DNA from: an uncultured Bacteroidota bacterium
GTDB lineage: Bacteria > Bacteroidota > Bacteroidia > Chitinophagales > Chitinophagaceae
Direction: 5' to 3'
DNA: 64,000 bases
NCBI GenBank assembly: GCA_903865435.1
Contig: CAIPJS010000023.1
Coordinates: forward strand, 1-64,000
Part shown: positions 10,594 through 39,214 of the stretch, in pieces
How the letters are laid out: each line of letters opens with the position of its first letter
Numbering within the stretch: position 1 is the stretch's first letter
Notes under the pieces: model-generated
Database searches by the model: none
The model's input: only the letters and a program-made list of their open reading frames with translations
What the model was told of the DNA's origin: nothing
Translations under genes and position numbers: made by a program

Positions 10594-10710
10594 ATGAAAG
10601 TTAGAGCATCCATTAAAAAACGTAGTGCCGATTGCAAGATCGTGAAGCGTAAAGGTAAATTATACGTTATCAACAAAAAGAATCCTCGTTTTAAGCAAAG
10701 ACAAGGATAA
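10594..10710 (+). CDS. rpmJ: 50S ribosomal protein L36
   Basis: A 38-residue protein: it starts [20 protein letters not shown] and ends NPRFKQRQG. This is the zinc-ribbon L36 but with only one of the usual four ligands clearly present (C14; the later Cys/His positions are V, N or K), so it is the zinc-free C- type. It lies between infA and rpsM in the usual order, 44 bp after infA and 38 bp before rpsM. Confidence 0.96.
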
Positions 10711-10748
10711 TTATCAAAATACAAATAACAAAAAACCAGTTTTAAAAT

Positions 10749-11129
10749 ATGGCTCGTATTGCCGGTATAGACTTACCAAAAAACAAAAGAGGAGAGATAG
10801 GACTACAGTACATCTTCGGTATTGGACATTCAACTGCTCAGTACATCTTAAACAAAGCAAACATCAGTTACGATAAAAAAGTAAATGAGTGGAACGACGA
10901 TGAGCAAACTGCTATTCGTAATATCATCAACGCTGAATTTAAAGTAGAAGGTGCTTTACGTAGTGAAGTTTCTATGAGCATTAAGCGTTTGTTAGACATT
11001 GCTTGTTACCGTGGTTTACGTCACAGAAAAGGTTTACCTGTTCGTGGTCAACGTACTAAAACTAACTCACGTACGCGTAAGGGTAAGCGTAAGACAGTTG
11101 CTGGTAAGAAAAAAGTTGCTAAGAAATAA
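10749..11129 (+). CDS. rpsM: 30S ribosomal protein S13
   Basis: S13 sits in the head of the 30S subunit and contacts the P-site tRNA and the 50S bridge. The 126-residue protein is complete: [24 protein letters not shown] at the N-terminus, [26 protein letters not shown] near the end and a Lys-rich tail. It is the third gene of the alpha operon. Confidence 0.98.
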
Positions 11130-12407: not shown

Positions 12408-13412
12408 ATGGCTATATTAAGTTTTCAAAAACCCGATAAAATTGTTTTACAAAAAGCAAATGACTTTGAAGGACAATTCGAATTCCGTCCATTAGAGCCA
12501 GGTTTTGGTTTAACATTAGGCAACGCTTTAAGAAGAGTTTTATTAAGCTCTTTAGAAGGGTTTGCTATTGTAGGTATTAAAATTGAAGGGGTAGACCACG
12601 AGTTTGCCACTTTAAAAGGTATCACAGAAGACGTTACTGAATTAATCTTAAACTTAAAGCAAGTTCGTTTTAAGCGTAAGGCCGATCAAGAAGTGAGTTC
12701 TGAAAAAATTACATTATCAATTAAAGGTAGCAGCGAATTTAACGCTGGTCATATTGGTGATGCTTCTCAACAATTCCAAGTAATGAACCCTGAATTGGTT
12801 ATTTGTACTATGGATTCAACTTCTAAATTAGAAATAGAATTAACGATTAGCAAAGGTCGTGGATACATTCCTGCTGAAGAGAATAAATTAAAAGAAATGC
12901 CATTTGGTTATATCGCAATTGATTCTATTCACACACCTATCAAAAACGTTAAATACGCTATTGAGAACTACCGTGTTGAACAAAGAACCGATTACGAAAA
13001 ATTAATTTTAGACGTTGCTACAGATGGTACGATCCATCCTGAAGATGCGGTAAAGCAAGCTTCTAGAATTTTGATTCAACATTTGATGATCATCACCGAT
13101 GAGAACATCACTTTTGATAATAAAGAAGATAAGAAAGAAGATGTAGTAGATGAGCAAGTATTGCAATTAAGAAAAGTTTTAAAAACGCCTTTGGAAGATT
13201 TAGACCTTTCTGTTCGTGCATTCAATTGTTTGAAAGCTGCTAAAATCAATAGCTTAAGCGAATTAGTTCAATATGAGCAAGAAGATTTGATGAAGTTTAG
13301 AAACTTTGGTCAAAAATCTTTATCTGAAATTGAGCAAGTTTTAATTGAAAGAGGATTAAGCTTTGGTATGGATTTGGGTAAATTAGGATTAGACAAATTA
13401 GATTTACAATAG
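12408..13412 (+). CDS. rpoA: RNA polymerase alpha subunit
   Basis: Alpha dimerises to scaffold RNA polymerase assembly. In 334 residues the N-terminal domain is shown by LEPGFGLTLGNALRRVLLSSLEGFAIVGIKIEGVDHEF and the C-terminal domain by LDLSVRAFNCLKAAKINSLSELVQYEQEDLMKFRNFGQKSLSEIEQVL. Both domains are complete and joined by an acidic linker (NKEDKKEDVVDEQ). It is the sixth gene in the alpha operon. Confidence 0.98.
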   Translation: MAILSFQKPDKIVLQKANDFEGQFEFRPLEPGFGLTLGNALRRVLLSSLEGFAIVGIKIEGVDHEFATLKGITEDVTELILNLKQVRFKRKADQEVSSEKITLSIKGSSEFNAGHIGDASQQFQVMNPELVICTMDSTSKLEIELTISKGRGYIPAEENKLKEMPFGYIAIDSIHTPIKNVKYAIENYRVEQRTDYEKLILDVATDGTIHPEDAVKQASRILIQHLMIITDENITFDNKEDKKEDVVDEQVLQLRKVLKTPLEDLDLSVRAFNCLKAAKINSLSELVQYEQEDLMKFRNFGQKSLSEIEQVLIERGLSFGMDLGKLGLDKLDLQ

Positions 13413-13446: not shown

Positions 13447-13488
13447 GAGCGAAAGCTCAAACCTTACAATTCCTGACACGGTGTAAGG
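13447..13488 (+). promoter_or_regulatory. Two tandem hairpins in the rpoA-rplQ gap, candidate rplQ leader
   Basis: The first hairpin is GAGC-GAAA-GCTC (13447-13458), a stem closed by a GNRA-type tetraloop. The second pairs CCTTACA (13462-13468) with TGTAAGG (13482-13488) around 13 nt. The second ends 16 nt before the rplQ ATG and has no U tract, so control of translation is more likely than termination (inference). Confidence 0.5.
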
Positions 13489-13504
13489 ATAAAACTTAAA
13501 AGTC

Positions 13505-14047
13505 ATGCGTCACGGAGACAAACAAAACAACCTAGGTAGAAAGAAAGCACATAGAGATGCTTTATTAATGAATTTAGCTTGTCAAGTAATTACGCACAAG
13601 CGCATTGTTACTACATTAGCTAAAGCAAAAGCTTTAAGAACTTATGTAGAGCCATTAATTACCAAAACAAAGAAAACAGCTACTAAAGAAGAAATTAGCC
13701 ATAACCACAGAGTGGTTTTTAGCTATTTGAACGACAAAGCTGCTGTAAAAGAATTATTTACAGTGGTAGCACCTAAAATTGCTGCTCGTCCAGGTGGATA
13801 CACTCGTATCATCAAATTAGGCATTCGTCCAGGGGACAATGCTGAAAAAGCAATGATTGAGTTAGTCGATTTCAACGAAGTGTACGGTAATTCAATAGCT
13901 ACGGCTGGCGAACCTGCTAAGAAAACACGTCGTAGCAAATCAACTGCTACAGCTACTAAAAAAGCACCTAAAGCAAAGGCGGAAGCGCCAGCAGCTGAGG
14001 AGGCTACTGAAACTGCAACAGATTCACCTGAAACTGCTGCTGAATAA
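13505..14047 (+). CDS. rplQ: 50S ribosomal protein L17 with a long Ala/Glu/Lys tail
   Basis: The core is typical L17: [45 protein letters not shown], then [29 protein letters not shown]. At 180 residues it is about 50 longer than the usual 115-130. The extra part after about residue 137 starts [20 protein letters not shown] and ends acidic ([16 protein letters not shown]). It is low-complexity, probably disordered and of unknown role. It is the last gene of the operon and is followed by a strong terminator. Confidence 0.97.
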
Positions 14048-14071
14048 TGATTTTAATGAATTAACATACAA

Positions 14072-14100
14072 GGCAAGACTAACCGTCTTGCCTTTTTTTT
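14072..14100 (+). terminator. Terminator of the infA-rplQ operon
   Basis: A perfect 8-bp stem GGCAAGAC/GTCTTGCC with a 5-nt loop (14072-14092) is followed by eight T. It lies 24 bp after the rplQ stop. Confidence 0.92.
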
Positions 14101-14204: not shown

Positions 14205-15299
14205 ATGAGCGCACAACCAGCAATTTTAGTTCTAGCCGATGGTCATGTATTTCACGGTCAAGCCTTTGGTAAAATTGGTACCACCACTGGAGAAATATGT
14301 TTTAATACCGGAATGACAGGGTATCAAGAAGTATTTACCGATCCTAGTTATACTGGACAAGTCATCATCATGAACAATGTGCACGTGGGCAATTATGGCG
14401 TTAGAAAAACCGATGTTGAAAGTAAGTCGGTTAAAATTCATGGGTTGATTGGTAGAAACTTAGAAGAAAAATACAGCCGTTTACTTGCCGATGGTAATTT
14501 GAATGAATACTTAATTGAGAATAATATTGTTTCTATAGAAGGTTTAGATACTAGAGCCTTAGTAATTCATGTGCGCAATTCAGGTGCTATGAACTGTATT
14601 ATTTCTTCAGACAACTTAGATGTAGATGCTTTAAAAGCGCAACTAGCGAAAGTACCTAGCATGGATGGATTAGAATTAGCAAGTACGGTAAGCACCAAAG
14701 AAATTTATGAACTAGGGGATACCAGTTCAAAAATTAAAGTTTCTGTTTTAGATTTTGGCGTGAAAGAACATATACTACAATGTTTGGTGGATAGAGGAGT
14801 GCATGTAAGAGTGCATCCCGCTAAAACCGATTTTGCCACTTTAAAAGCATTTAATCCAACAGGTTATTTTTTATCCAATGGTCCTGGAGATCCAGCGCCT
14901 ATGGACTACGCCATTAAAACCATCAAAGAAGTTTTAAAAGAAAAGAAACCTTTATTTGGTATTTGTTTAGGGCATCAATTACTTGCTTTAGCAAATGACA
15001 TTCCTACTTTCAAAATGCACCATGGACATCGTGGATTAAACCATCCGGTTAAAAATGTAATTACTGGTTTATGTGAAATTACTACACAGAACCATGGCTT
15101 TGGTGTAGATCCTGATGCAGTGCGCAAACATCCCAATGTAATTGTATCTCATGTGAATTTAAATGATGATTCTATTGAAGGCATTAAACTAAAAGACCGT
15201 CCTGCTTTTAGTGTACAATACCATCCTGAAGCAACACCCGGTCCGCACGATAGCAGGTACTTATTTGATGATTTCGTGTCTTTAATGAAATCGAATTAA
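14205..15299 (+). CDS. carA: Carbamoyl-phosphate synthase small (glutaminase) subunit
   Basis: CarA hydrolyses glutamine and passes ammonia to CarB for arginine and pyrimidine synthesis. The 364-residue protein has the N-terminal CarA domain (LVLADGHVFHGQAFG, ICFNTGMTGYQEVFTDPSYTGQ) and a class I amidotransferase domain with LSNGPGDP, the nucleophile C254 in GICLGHQ, and the catalytic His-Glu pair in QYHPEATPGP. carB is not in this window. aroQ starts 12 bp downstream, so the two are probably cotranscribed. Confidence 0.97.
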   Translation: MSAQPAILVLADGHVFHGQAFGKIGTTTGEICFNTGMTGYQEVFTDPSYTGQVIIMNNVHVGNYGVRKTDVESKSVKIHGLIGRNLEEKYSRLLADGNLNEYLIENNIVSIEGLDTRALVIHVRNSGAMNCIISSDNLDVDALKAQLAKVPSMDGLELASTVSTKEIYELGDTSSKIKVSVLDFGVKEHILQCLVDRGVHVRVHPAKTDFATLKAFNPTGYFLSNGPGDPAPMDYAIKTIKEVLKEKKPLFGICLGHQLLALANDIPTFKMHHGHRGLNHPVKNVITGLCEITTQNHGFGVDPDAVRKHPNVIVSHVNLNDDSIEGIKLKDRPAFSVQYHPEATPGPHDSRYLFDDFVSLMKSN

Positions 15300-38823: not shown

Positions 38824-39194
38824 GGGGTCGTATGGTTTTGACAGCAGTCGTAGCAGTTGGGGTAAGCATGCAGTGCGTTGGGTAATTAGCACTTTAATCT
38901 GAATACCAAACAATCAAAAGGCGAAGCAAATTTTGCCATGGCTGCTTAATTCAGTGAATTAACTTCCATTTTGGTCGAGAGAGAAGGCAGGCCTGTTGCC
39001 CGCTCCTCAGCCTAATTAAAAACAAAACAGGATGCGATAAATGTAGGCTGTGCCATTTATTTAAGTACCATTCAGCTAAGCGAATAATTGGTTTGTGTTT
39101 TTCCTGCTATGCGCCGACAAGTAATAAAACAATAAGCATGTAGAAGACCAATGGTAACATTGTTTGGACAGGGGTTCGACTCCCCTCGACTCCA
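38824..39194 (+). ncRNA. ssrA: Transfer-messenger RNA (tmRNA), tag GEANFAMAA
   Basis: tmRNA rescues stalled ribosomes and tags the nascent chain for proteolysis. The 5' GGGGTCGTATGGTTTTGACAG and the 3' tRNA-like part GGGGTTCGACTCCCCTCGACTCCA pair as an acceptor stem (GGGGTCG with CGACTCC). The discriminator A is at 39194; the CCA end is not encoded. The tag frame starts at 38920: GGC GAA GCA AAT TTT GCC ATG GCT GCT TAA, giving GEANFAMAA. This is close to the GExxYALAA type usual in Bacteroidota, with Phe and Met variants. It is a standard one-piece form. Confidence 0.96.
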
Positions 39195-39214
39195 CAAGTA
39201 GCTCAATTGATTAG

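Follow-up and report, generated by a model that had tools for sequence, protein, structure and literature searches.

Comparison of related genomes identifies a hairpin in the gap between rpoA and rplQ, the gene of ribosomal protein bL17, whose loop covaries with the bases at the rplQ start codon and which keeps a constant place before rplQ. From these sequences we infer that the loop pairs with the start codon in the cell, that the pairing represses rplQ, and that bL17 acts as the ligand. With slightly better than even confidence, the element can be read as a bL17 feedback switch in which the hairpin loop captures the A of AUG together with the three preceding bases, and as the first L17 leader described in Bacteroidota. 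It is most likely of a known kind, the ribosomal-protein leader, with bL17 binding putative. In the window (the whole stretch of 64,000 nucleotides that was analysed) the end of the operon is presumably rpsM, rpsK, rpsD, rpoA and rplQ, names that we take from the sequence, and the rpoA-rplQ gap is 92 nt long. The window belongs to a Bacteroidota genome. Among named records, its L17 matches a 'Chitinophagaceae bacterium' best (99% identity), with records of Sediminibacterium and Chitinophagaceae next. The parts of the locus are as follows.

12408-13412, + strand: rpoA (RNA polymerase alpha), the upstream gene; an open reading frame named from sequence and used as tblastn query
13447-13458, + strand: first hairpin, GAGC-GAAA-GCTC; variable, outside the conserved core
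13462-13468, + strand: 5' strand of stem S1, CCTTACA, outer 7 bp; covariation in 7/7 pairs
13469-13471, + strand: bulge AUU, 3 nt (AAU in some relatives), from comparison of relatives
13472-13473, + strand: CC, 5' side of the inner pairs; invariant across 105 rows
13474-13479, + strand: hexaloop UGACAC; its bases UGAC (13474-13477) would form the 5' side of the proposed pseudoknot helix S2
13480-13481, + strand: GG, 3' side of the inner pairs, from the alignment of 105 sequences
13482-13488, + strand: 3' strand of S1, TGTAAGG, from the alignment of 105 sequences
13489-13501, + strand: A-rich linker, which would be the pseudoknot's third loop, from sequence
13502-13505, + strand: GUC plus the A of AUG, proposed 3' strand of S2 (rplQ -3 to +1), from GGC/GCC covariation
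13505-14047, + strand: rplQ (ribosomal protein bL17), the downstream gene; an open reading frame with relatives found
14070-14094, + strand: terminator-like hairpin with T run after rplQ, from a consensus scan

In the proposed mechanism, the gap would encode an RNA leader that acts in cis on rplQ. Its hairpin of 9 bp (7 outer pairs, a 3-nt bulge and 2 inner C-G pairs) would display the hexaloop UGACAC, and its UGAC would pair with GUCA at -3 to +1 of rplQ, giving an H-type pseudoknot closed over the start codon. The helix S2, of 3-4 bp, is expected to be weak by itself; excess bL17 would bind the hairpin or the pseudoknot and stabilise it, and initiation on bL17's own mRNA would be lowered until rRNA takes the protein up. 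The structure with its pseudoknot is very probable, and repression of rplQ by the leader is likely. That a bL17-stabilised start-codon pseudoknot represses rplQ translation seems reasonably probable, and the identification of bL17 as the ligand is held with fair confidence.

An initial annotation, made from the window, had proposed a structured rplQ leader of two hairpins, the second lying 3 nt past the first and 16 nt ahead of the ATG. Both stems are found at these spacings and at the positions listed above, and both appear in the minimum-free-energy and centroid folds of the window sequence. As a single sequence the leader has unremarkable stability (z -0.88; equalled or bettered by 36 of 200 shuffles). 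The annotation had named conservation of the stems as its check, and on this point the two hairpins part: compensatory changes preserve the second stem, which bears out a structured leader, and the first hairpin is not conserved. The loops of the latter in close relatives are GAAA, AAAA, UUUCG or UUCG, and other relatives have unrelated hairpins in this segment or, by the criterion applied, none. As a signature, the GNRA loop and the tandem arrangement, offered as typical of protein-binding leaders, are thus not supported, and the first hairpin, whose arms and loops change or disappear in relatives, was rejected as a conserved part and lies outside the conserved element. Of 202 distinct segments ahead of the conserved hairpin, 105 contain some hairpin, a threefold excess over the 33.5 expected from mononucleotide shuffles. 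The earlier reading is therefore partly supported; it missed the near-invariant interior and the covarying partner at the start codon, and this loop-start pairing is the important part of the finding.

Within the same genus, the second stem compensates from gap to gap (CCTTACA/TGTAAGG, ATCTTGT/ACAAGAT, CTCCACA/TGTGGAG and CTTCACA/TGTGAAG) around a nearly fixed interior, and unconstrained RNAalifold recovered the 9-pair hairpin with double changes in 6 pairs. Pair counts rest on 188 loci with 105 distinct sequences. They leave out 32 of 220 rows because the interior has another length (17 CTTGACACGG, 9 CCTTGACACGG, 3 CTGACACGG, 1 CCGACACGG, 1 CCTGACAACGG and L036); L023 was excluded from A2 and L034 from A1-A3. 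Among the 105 distinct sequences, pairing holds in 99.5% of second-stem cells. Double changes occur in each of the 7 outer pairs, in between 1 and 56 rows depending on the pair (one pair's double change resting on a single sequence), and the 2 inner C-G pairs are invariant. Free variation of the outer stem contrasts with an interior, AWU-CC-UGACAC-GG, that hardly varies. Over the 13 modelled pairs of the same set, 8 have changes on both sides and 98.2% of cells are paired. The covariation score of 0.536 was reached by none of 500 shuffles, and with partners slid by 1-3 columns just 29-44% of all structure cells pair. Sums from the pair table give 44 G-U or U-G cells in S1 against 4 unpaired ones, and since the 44 would be A-C mismatches on the opposite strand, the rplQ-sense strand is taken as the folding strand. 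Judged from these alignments, the second stem is a real RNA element conserved beyond chance, and it combines conserved structure with compensatory changes as ribosomal-protein leaders do.

A covariance model of the hairpin alone (27 nt) gave 109 matches across 396 order genomes, never more than one to a genome. The window's family, coded f1 and equated here with Chitinophagaceae by inference, holds 108 of them, all inside the rpoA-rplQ gap, which places the element consistently upstream of a ribosomal-protein gene (108 of 109 matches); the remaining match, in another family, has an E value of 7.7e-4 and no L17 within 800 nt. From stem end to AUG the 108 loci span 14-100 nt, with a median of 17. 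These matches come from 108 of 133 sampled f1 genomes. Of the 25 without a match, 20 were examined: 17 have a variant hairpin, mostly with a UUGACAC loop and in one case with a stem mismatch, and the other 3, all of genus g24, have no element. The model matched 6 of 395 genomes in a sample of the class, all of them f1, in a search whose filters lose weak matches. Similar hairpins, with the loop UGAUAC, stand ahead of rplQ in three order-sample genomes that belong to a different family, f4. The element belongs to the window's family, perhaps with an older root. The f4 leader (L034, L037, L357-L359) reads TTGCA-TA-CC-TGATAC-GG-TGCAA or close to it and has no partner before AUG. A pattern for AGA-coded L17 starts matched 4 of 396 order genomes, three of them f4.

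The loop bases UGAC are complementary to GUC and the A of AUG. After one of 220 distinct loci was set aside (L036, a false match outside the family), 219 distinct family loci remained, with bases -3 to -1 of rplQ being GUC in 188, GCC in 13 and GUU in 3, the last retaining the pairing by wobble. The loop GGC goes with the start GCC in 13 of 13 distinct loci, whereas the loop GAC is found with GCC in 0 of 206 (Fisher p 3e-21, with relatedness ignored). When 160 further family genomes were searched with a pattern that left loop and start bases free, 112 matched, 13 of them GGC/GCC and none mixed; 10 of these 13 were already among the 13 loci and 3 are extra, bringing the GGC/GCC genomes to 16. 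A FastTree phylogeny built from RpoA and L17 (212 of the 219 loci, 7 having been dropped for short proteins) requires at least 5 changes for the loop and at least 5 for the start. Supported branches offer 3 independent pairs, and in all 3 the two change together, with a sign test p of 0.25 that could not reach 0.05 given the few joint changes. Genus g42 contains both states (genome G212 versus G351 and G541).

In several loci GUCA is displaced, as GUCAA-AUG (L212, L256), as GUCAUC-AUG (L214) or at least 10 nt upstream (L219, L326, L327), and by their sequences these loci preserve complementarity rather than start-codon context. Of the 219 loci, 210 have a partner in the interval from stem to AUG, where shuffled linkers give 26.8. 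Column shuffles back S2 by its paired cells, its cells with double changes and its score (0 of 500 in each case); they do not back it by the number of pairs or pair types, because only one S2 pair has a double change (12 of 105 rows). The third and fourth S2 pairs have no double change, and the U14-A(+1) pair is lost where the loop is CGGC. Covariation of loop and downstream bases, which marks an H-type pseudoknot at the start, is present in this set. No canonical partner was found in 9 of the 219 hairpin loci (L119, L163, L164, L166, L189, L203, L239, L254 and L297), which include genera with the UUGAC loop. Four of these (L119, L163, L164 and L297) combine the UUGAC loop and a lack of GUC with a UCAA in the linker, perhaps a pairing that has shifted. 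Part of the conservation of the start triplet may have another cause, since 7 of the 20 order genomes from other families have GUC, GCC or AUC ahead of the L17 AUG without this hairpin (L032, L036, L045, L046, L048, L049 and L051).

A second GUCA lies near the start (13505-13516), where L17 codons 2-4 are CGU CAC GG in most family loci viewed. It was rejected as loop partner: CGUCAC is unchanged in the GGC/GCC loci and therefore does not covary with the loop. A search of 394 family genomes with the pattern CATGRCN{14,44}CCGTGYC was discarded as too loose, its reversed control giving an equal match count.

The order of the elements (S1 5' strand, S2 loop strand, S1 3' strand, A-rich linker, S2 start strand) is that of an H-type pseudoknot, and some loci hold extra linker sequence, up to about 100 nt. 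The linker would be long enough for a workable pseudoknot geometry. As free duplexes, UGAC/GUCA reaches -2.1 kcal/mol and GGC/GCC -4.2 kcal/mol, a weakness that is expected if a ligand is needed. The available text of PMC6847099 describes Flavobacterium johnsoniae, of the same phylum, as initiating without a Shine-Dalgarno sequence, preferring low structure around AUG, and favouring A at -3. Given these preferences, the G found at -3 in 204 of 219 loci, paired with an upstream loop, should cost initiation unless control is served.

Gene order guides the choice of ligand. The terminator-like site after rplQ, beyond which an unrelated open reading frame begins at 14205, leaves rplQ as the sole ribosomal-protein gene downstream, and the 'Only' rule, by which a ligand is named after such a sole downstream gene (in the available part of PMC7247131), makes bL17 the first choice. 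The main rival is uS4, on account of an earlier proposal that E. coli has a second uS4 site ahead of rplQ; encoded two genes upstream, uS4 would bind the same pseudoknot before rplQ and repress it. In E. coli uS4 represses bL17, and the second site was put forward in 1984 without strong evidence (both from the accessible text of PMC10931766), while uS4 leaders have been predicted in Bacteroidia and Flavobacteria (accessible part of PMC7247131). The position of rplQ as the only downstream ribosomal-protein gene and the lack of an Alpha_RBS match in the rpoA-rplQ gap both speak against uS4, which we regard as unlikely. It is likewise rather improbable that the element has no protein ligand at all, with the hairpin and a weak pseudoknot fixing rplQ initiation below that of rpoA or coupling it to rpoA translation. 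Messenger structure near the start does tune initiation in F. johnsoniae (available text of PMC6847099), and S2 is short, with its free UGAC/GUCA duplex at the low value given above; such fixed tuning, however, would not require a near-invariant AWU-CC-UGACAC-GG amid a freely changing outer stem.

Alternatively, bL17 or some other factor could bind the hairpin as its conserved site, with the loop-start pairing minor or absent. The 9 partnerless family loci and the 3 f4 genomes, which have the hairpin and no partner at AUG, fit such a site, but the split of GGC/GCC (13 of 13 against 0 of 206) and the displaced GUCA of several loci do not, and we consider it very improbable. The chance that the inverted repeat, which does sit in an intergenic gap, is a transcription attenuator or a DNA-level repeat is close to nil: no T run follows the hairpin, a terminator scan of the + strand found none in the gap, and the G-U pairs and start-codon pairing point to RNA. 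A terminator or attenuator identity was rejected on the same two grounds of T run and scan.

The start-codon pseudoknot with bL17 as ligand, which remains the preferred reading, has a known counterpart. In the E. coli rpsO leader, an H-type pseudoknot near the start codon is stabilised by the encoded ribosomal protein S15; the rplQ element would share this kind of pseudoknot and its placement but differs in gene, sequence and phylum, and in the rplQ leader bases -3 to +1 would pair and no Shine-Dalgarno sequence is used. The uS4 pseudoknot of the E. coli alpha operon (RF00140, Alpha_RBS) likewise contains a translation start and lies in the same operon (accessible text of PMC10931766), but it stands before rpsM and binds uS4, and Alpha_RBS did not match in the rpoA-rplQ gap. 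Separately, a sub-threshold Alpha_RBS match (20 bits, cut-off 38, E 0.15) was seen over the rpsM start at 10708-10781, where E. coli has its uS4 pseudoknot.

Among the leaders named for L17, the available part of PMC7247131 lists one only for Actinobacteria and Proteobacteria. Like the present element, it is a predicted structured RNA ahead of rplQ, with no other gene under its control; it belongs to other phyla, and the comparison is by description. The same source, in that part, lists S4 leaders for Bacteroidia and Flavobacteria; these hairpin leaders too belong to the phylum's alpha operon, but they are listed for rpsD, rpoA and rplQ together and not for the rpoA-rplQ gap. The L17 downstream element (RF01708), described in the accessible text of PMC2864571, is tied to the L17 gene with feedback suggested, but in Lactobacillales and Listeria it follows the gene on the 3' side, whereas the window element lies 5' of rplQ and gave no RF01708 match in the Rfam scan. 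No family of Rfam 15 matched in the rpoA-rplQ gap. The main text of PMC11109978 mentions neither L17 nor rplQ nor any word in Bacteroid-, and no L17 leader in Bacteroidota or Chitinophaga was found in the open-licence literature (supplements and subscription papers being outside this scope), in agreement with the initial annotation, which knew of none in the phylum.

Many leaders hide a Shine-Dalgarno site. Bacteroidota are without such sites, and since the Shine-Dalgarno sequence is absent, control by hiding it is impossible in these bacteria. If the proposed mechanism is true, start-codon capture would be a form of ribosomal-protein control suited to bacteria of this kind. The element offers a compact, testable answer as to how initiation may be blocked, by pairing of bases -3 to +1, and the natural A-U to G-C swap supplies mutants with which compensation could be tested. 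The element would also bring in a ligand, bL17, for which one predicted leader has been reported, in other phyla (available part of PMC7247131).

The leader was also considered as a possible mimic of 23S rRNA. Compared with 23S rRNA stretches from two genomes of the same genus, parts of which were masked and which left the L17 contact site outside the comparison, the core of the element had a best likeness of 3 mismatches in 12, none of the likenesses being convincing; the window's own genome gave no 23S match. Elsewhere in the window, a tmRNA gene lies at 38824-39197 (Rfam RF00023, 114.7 bits).
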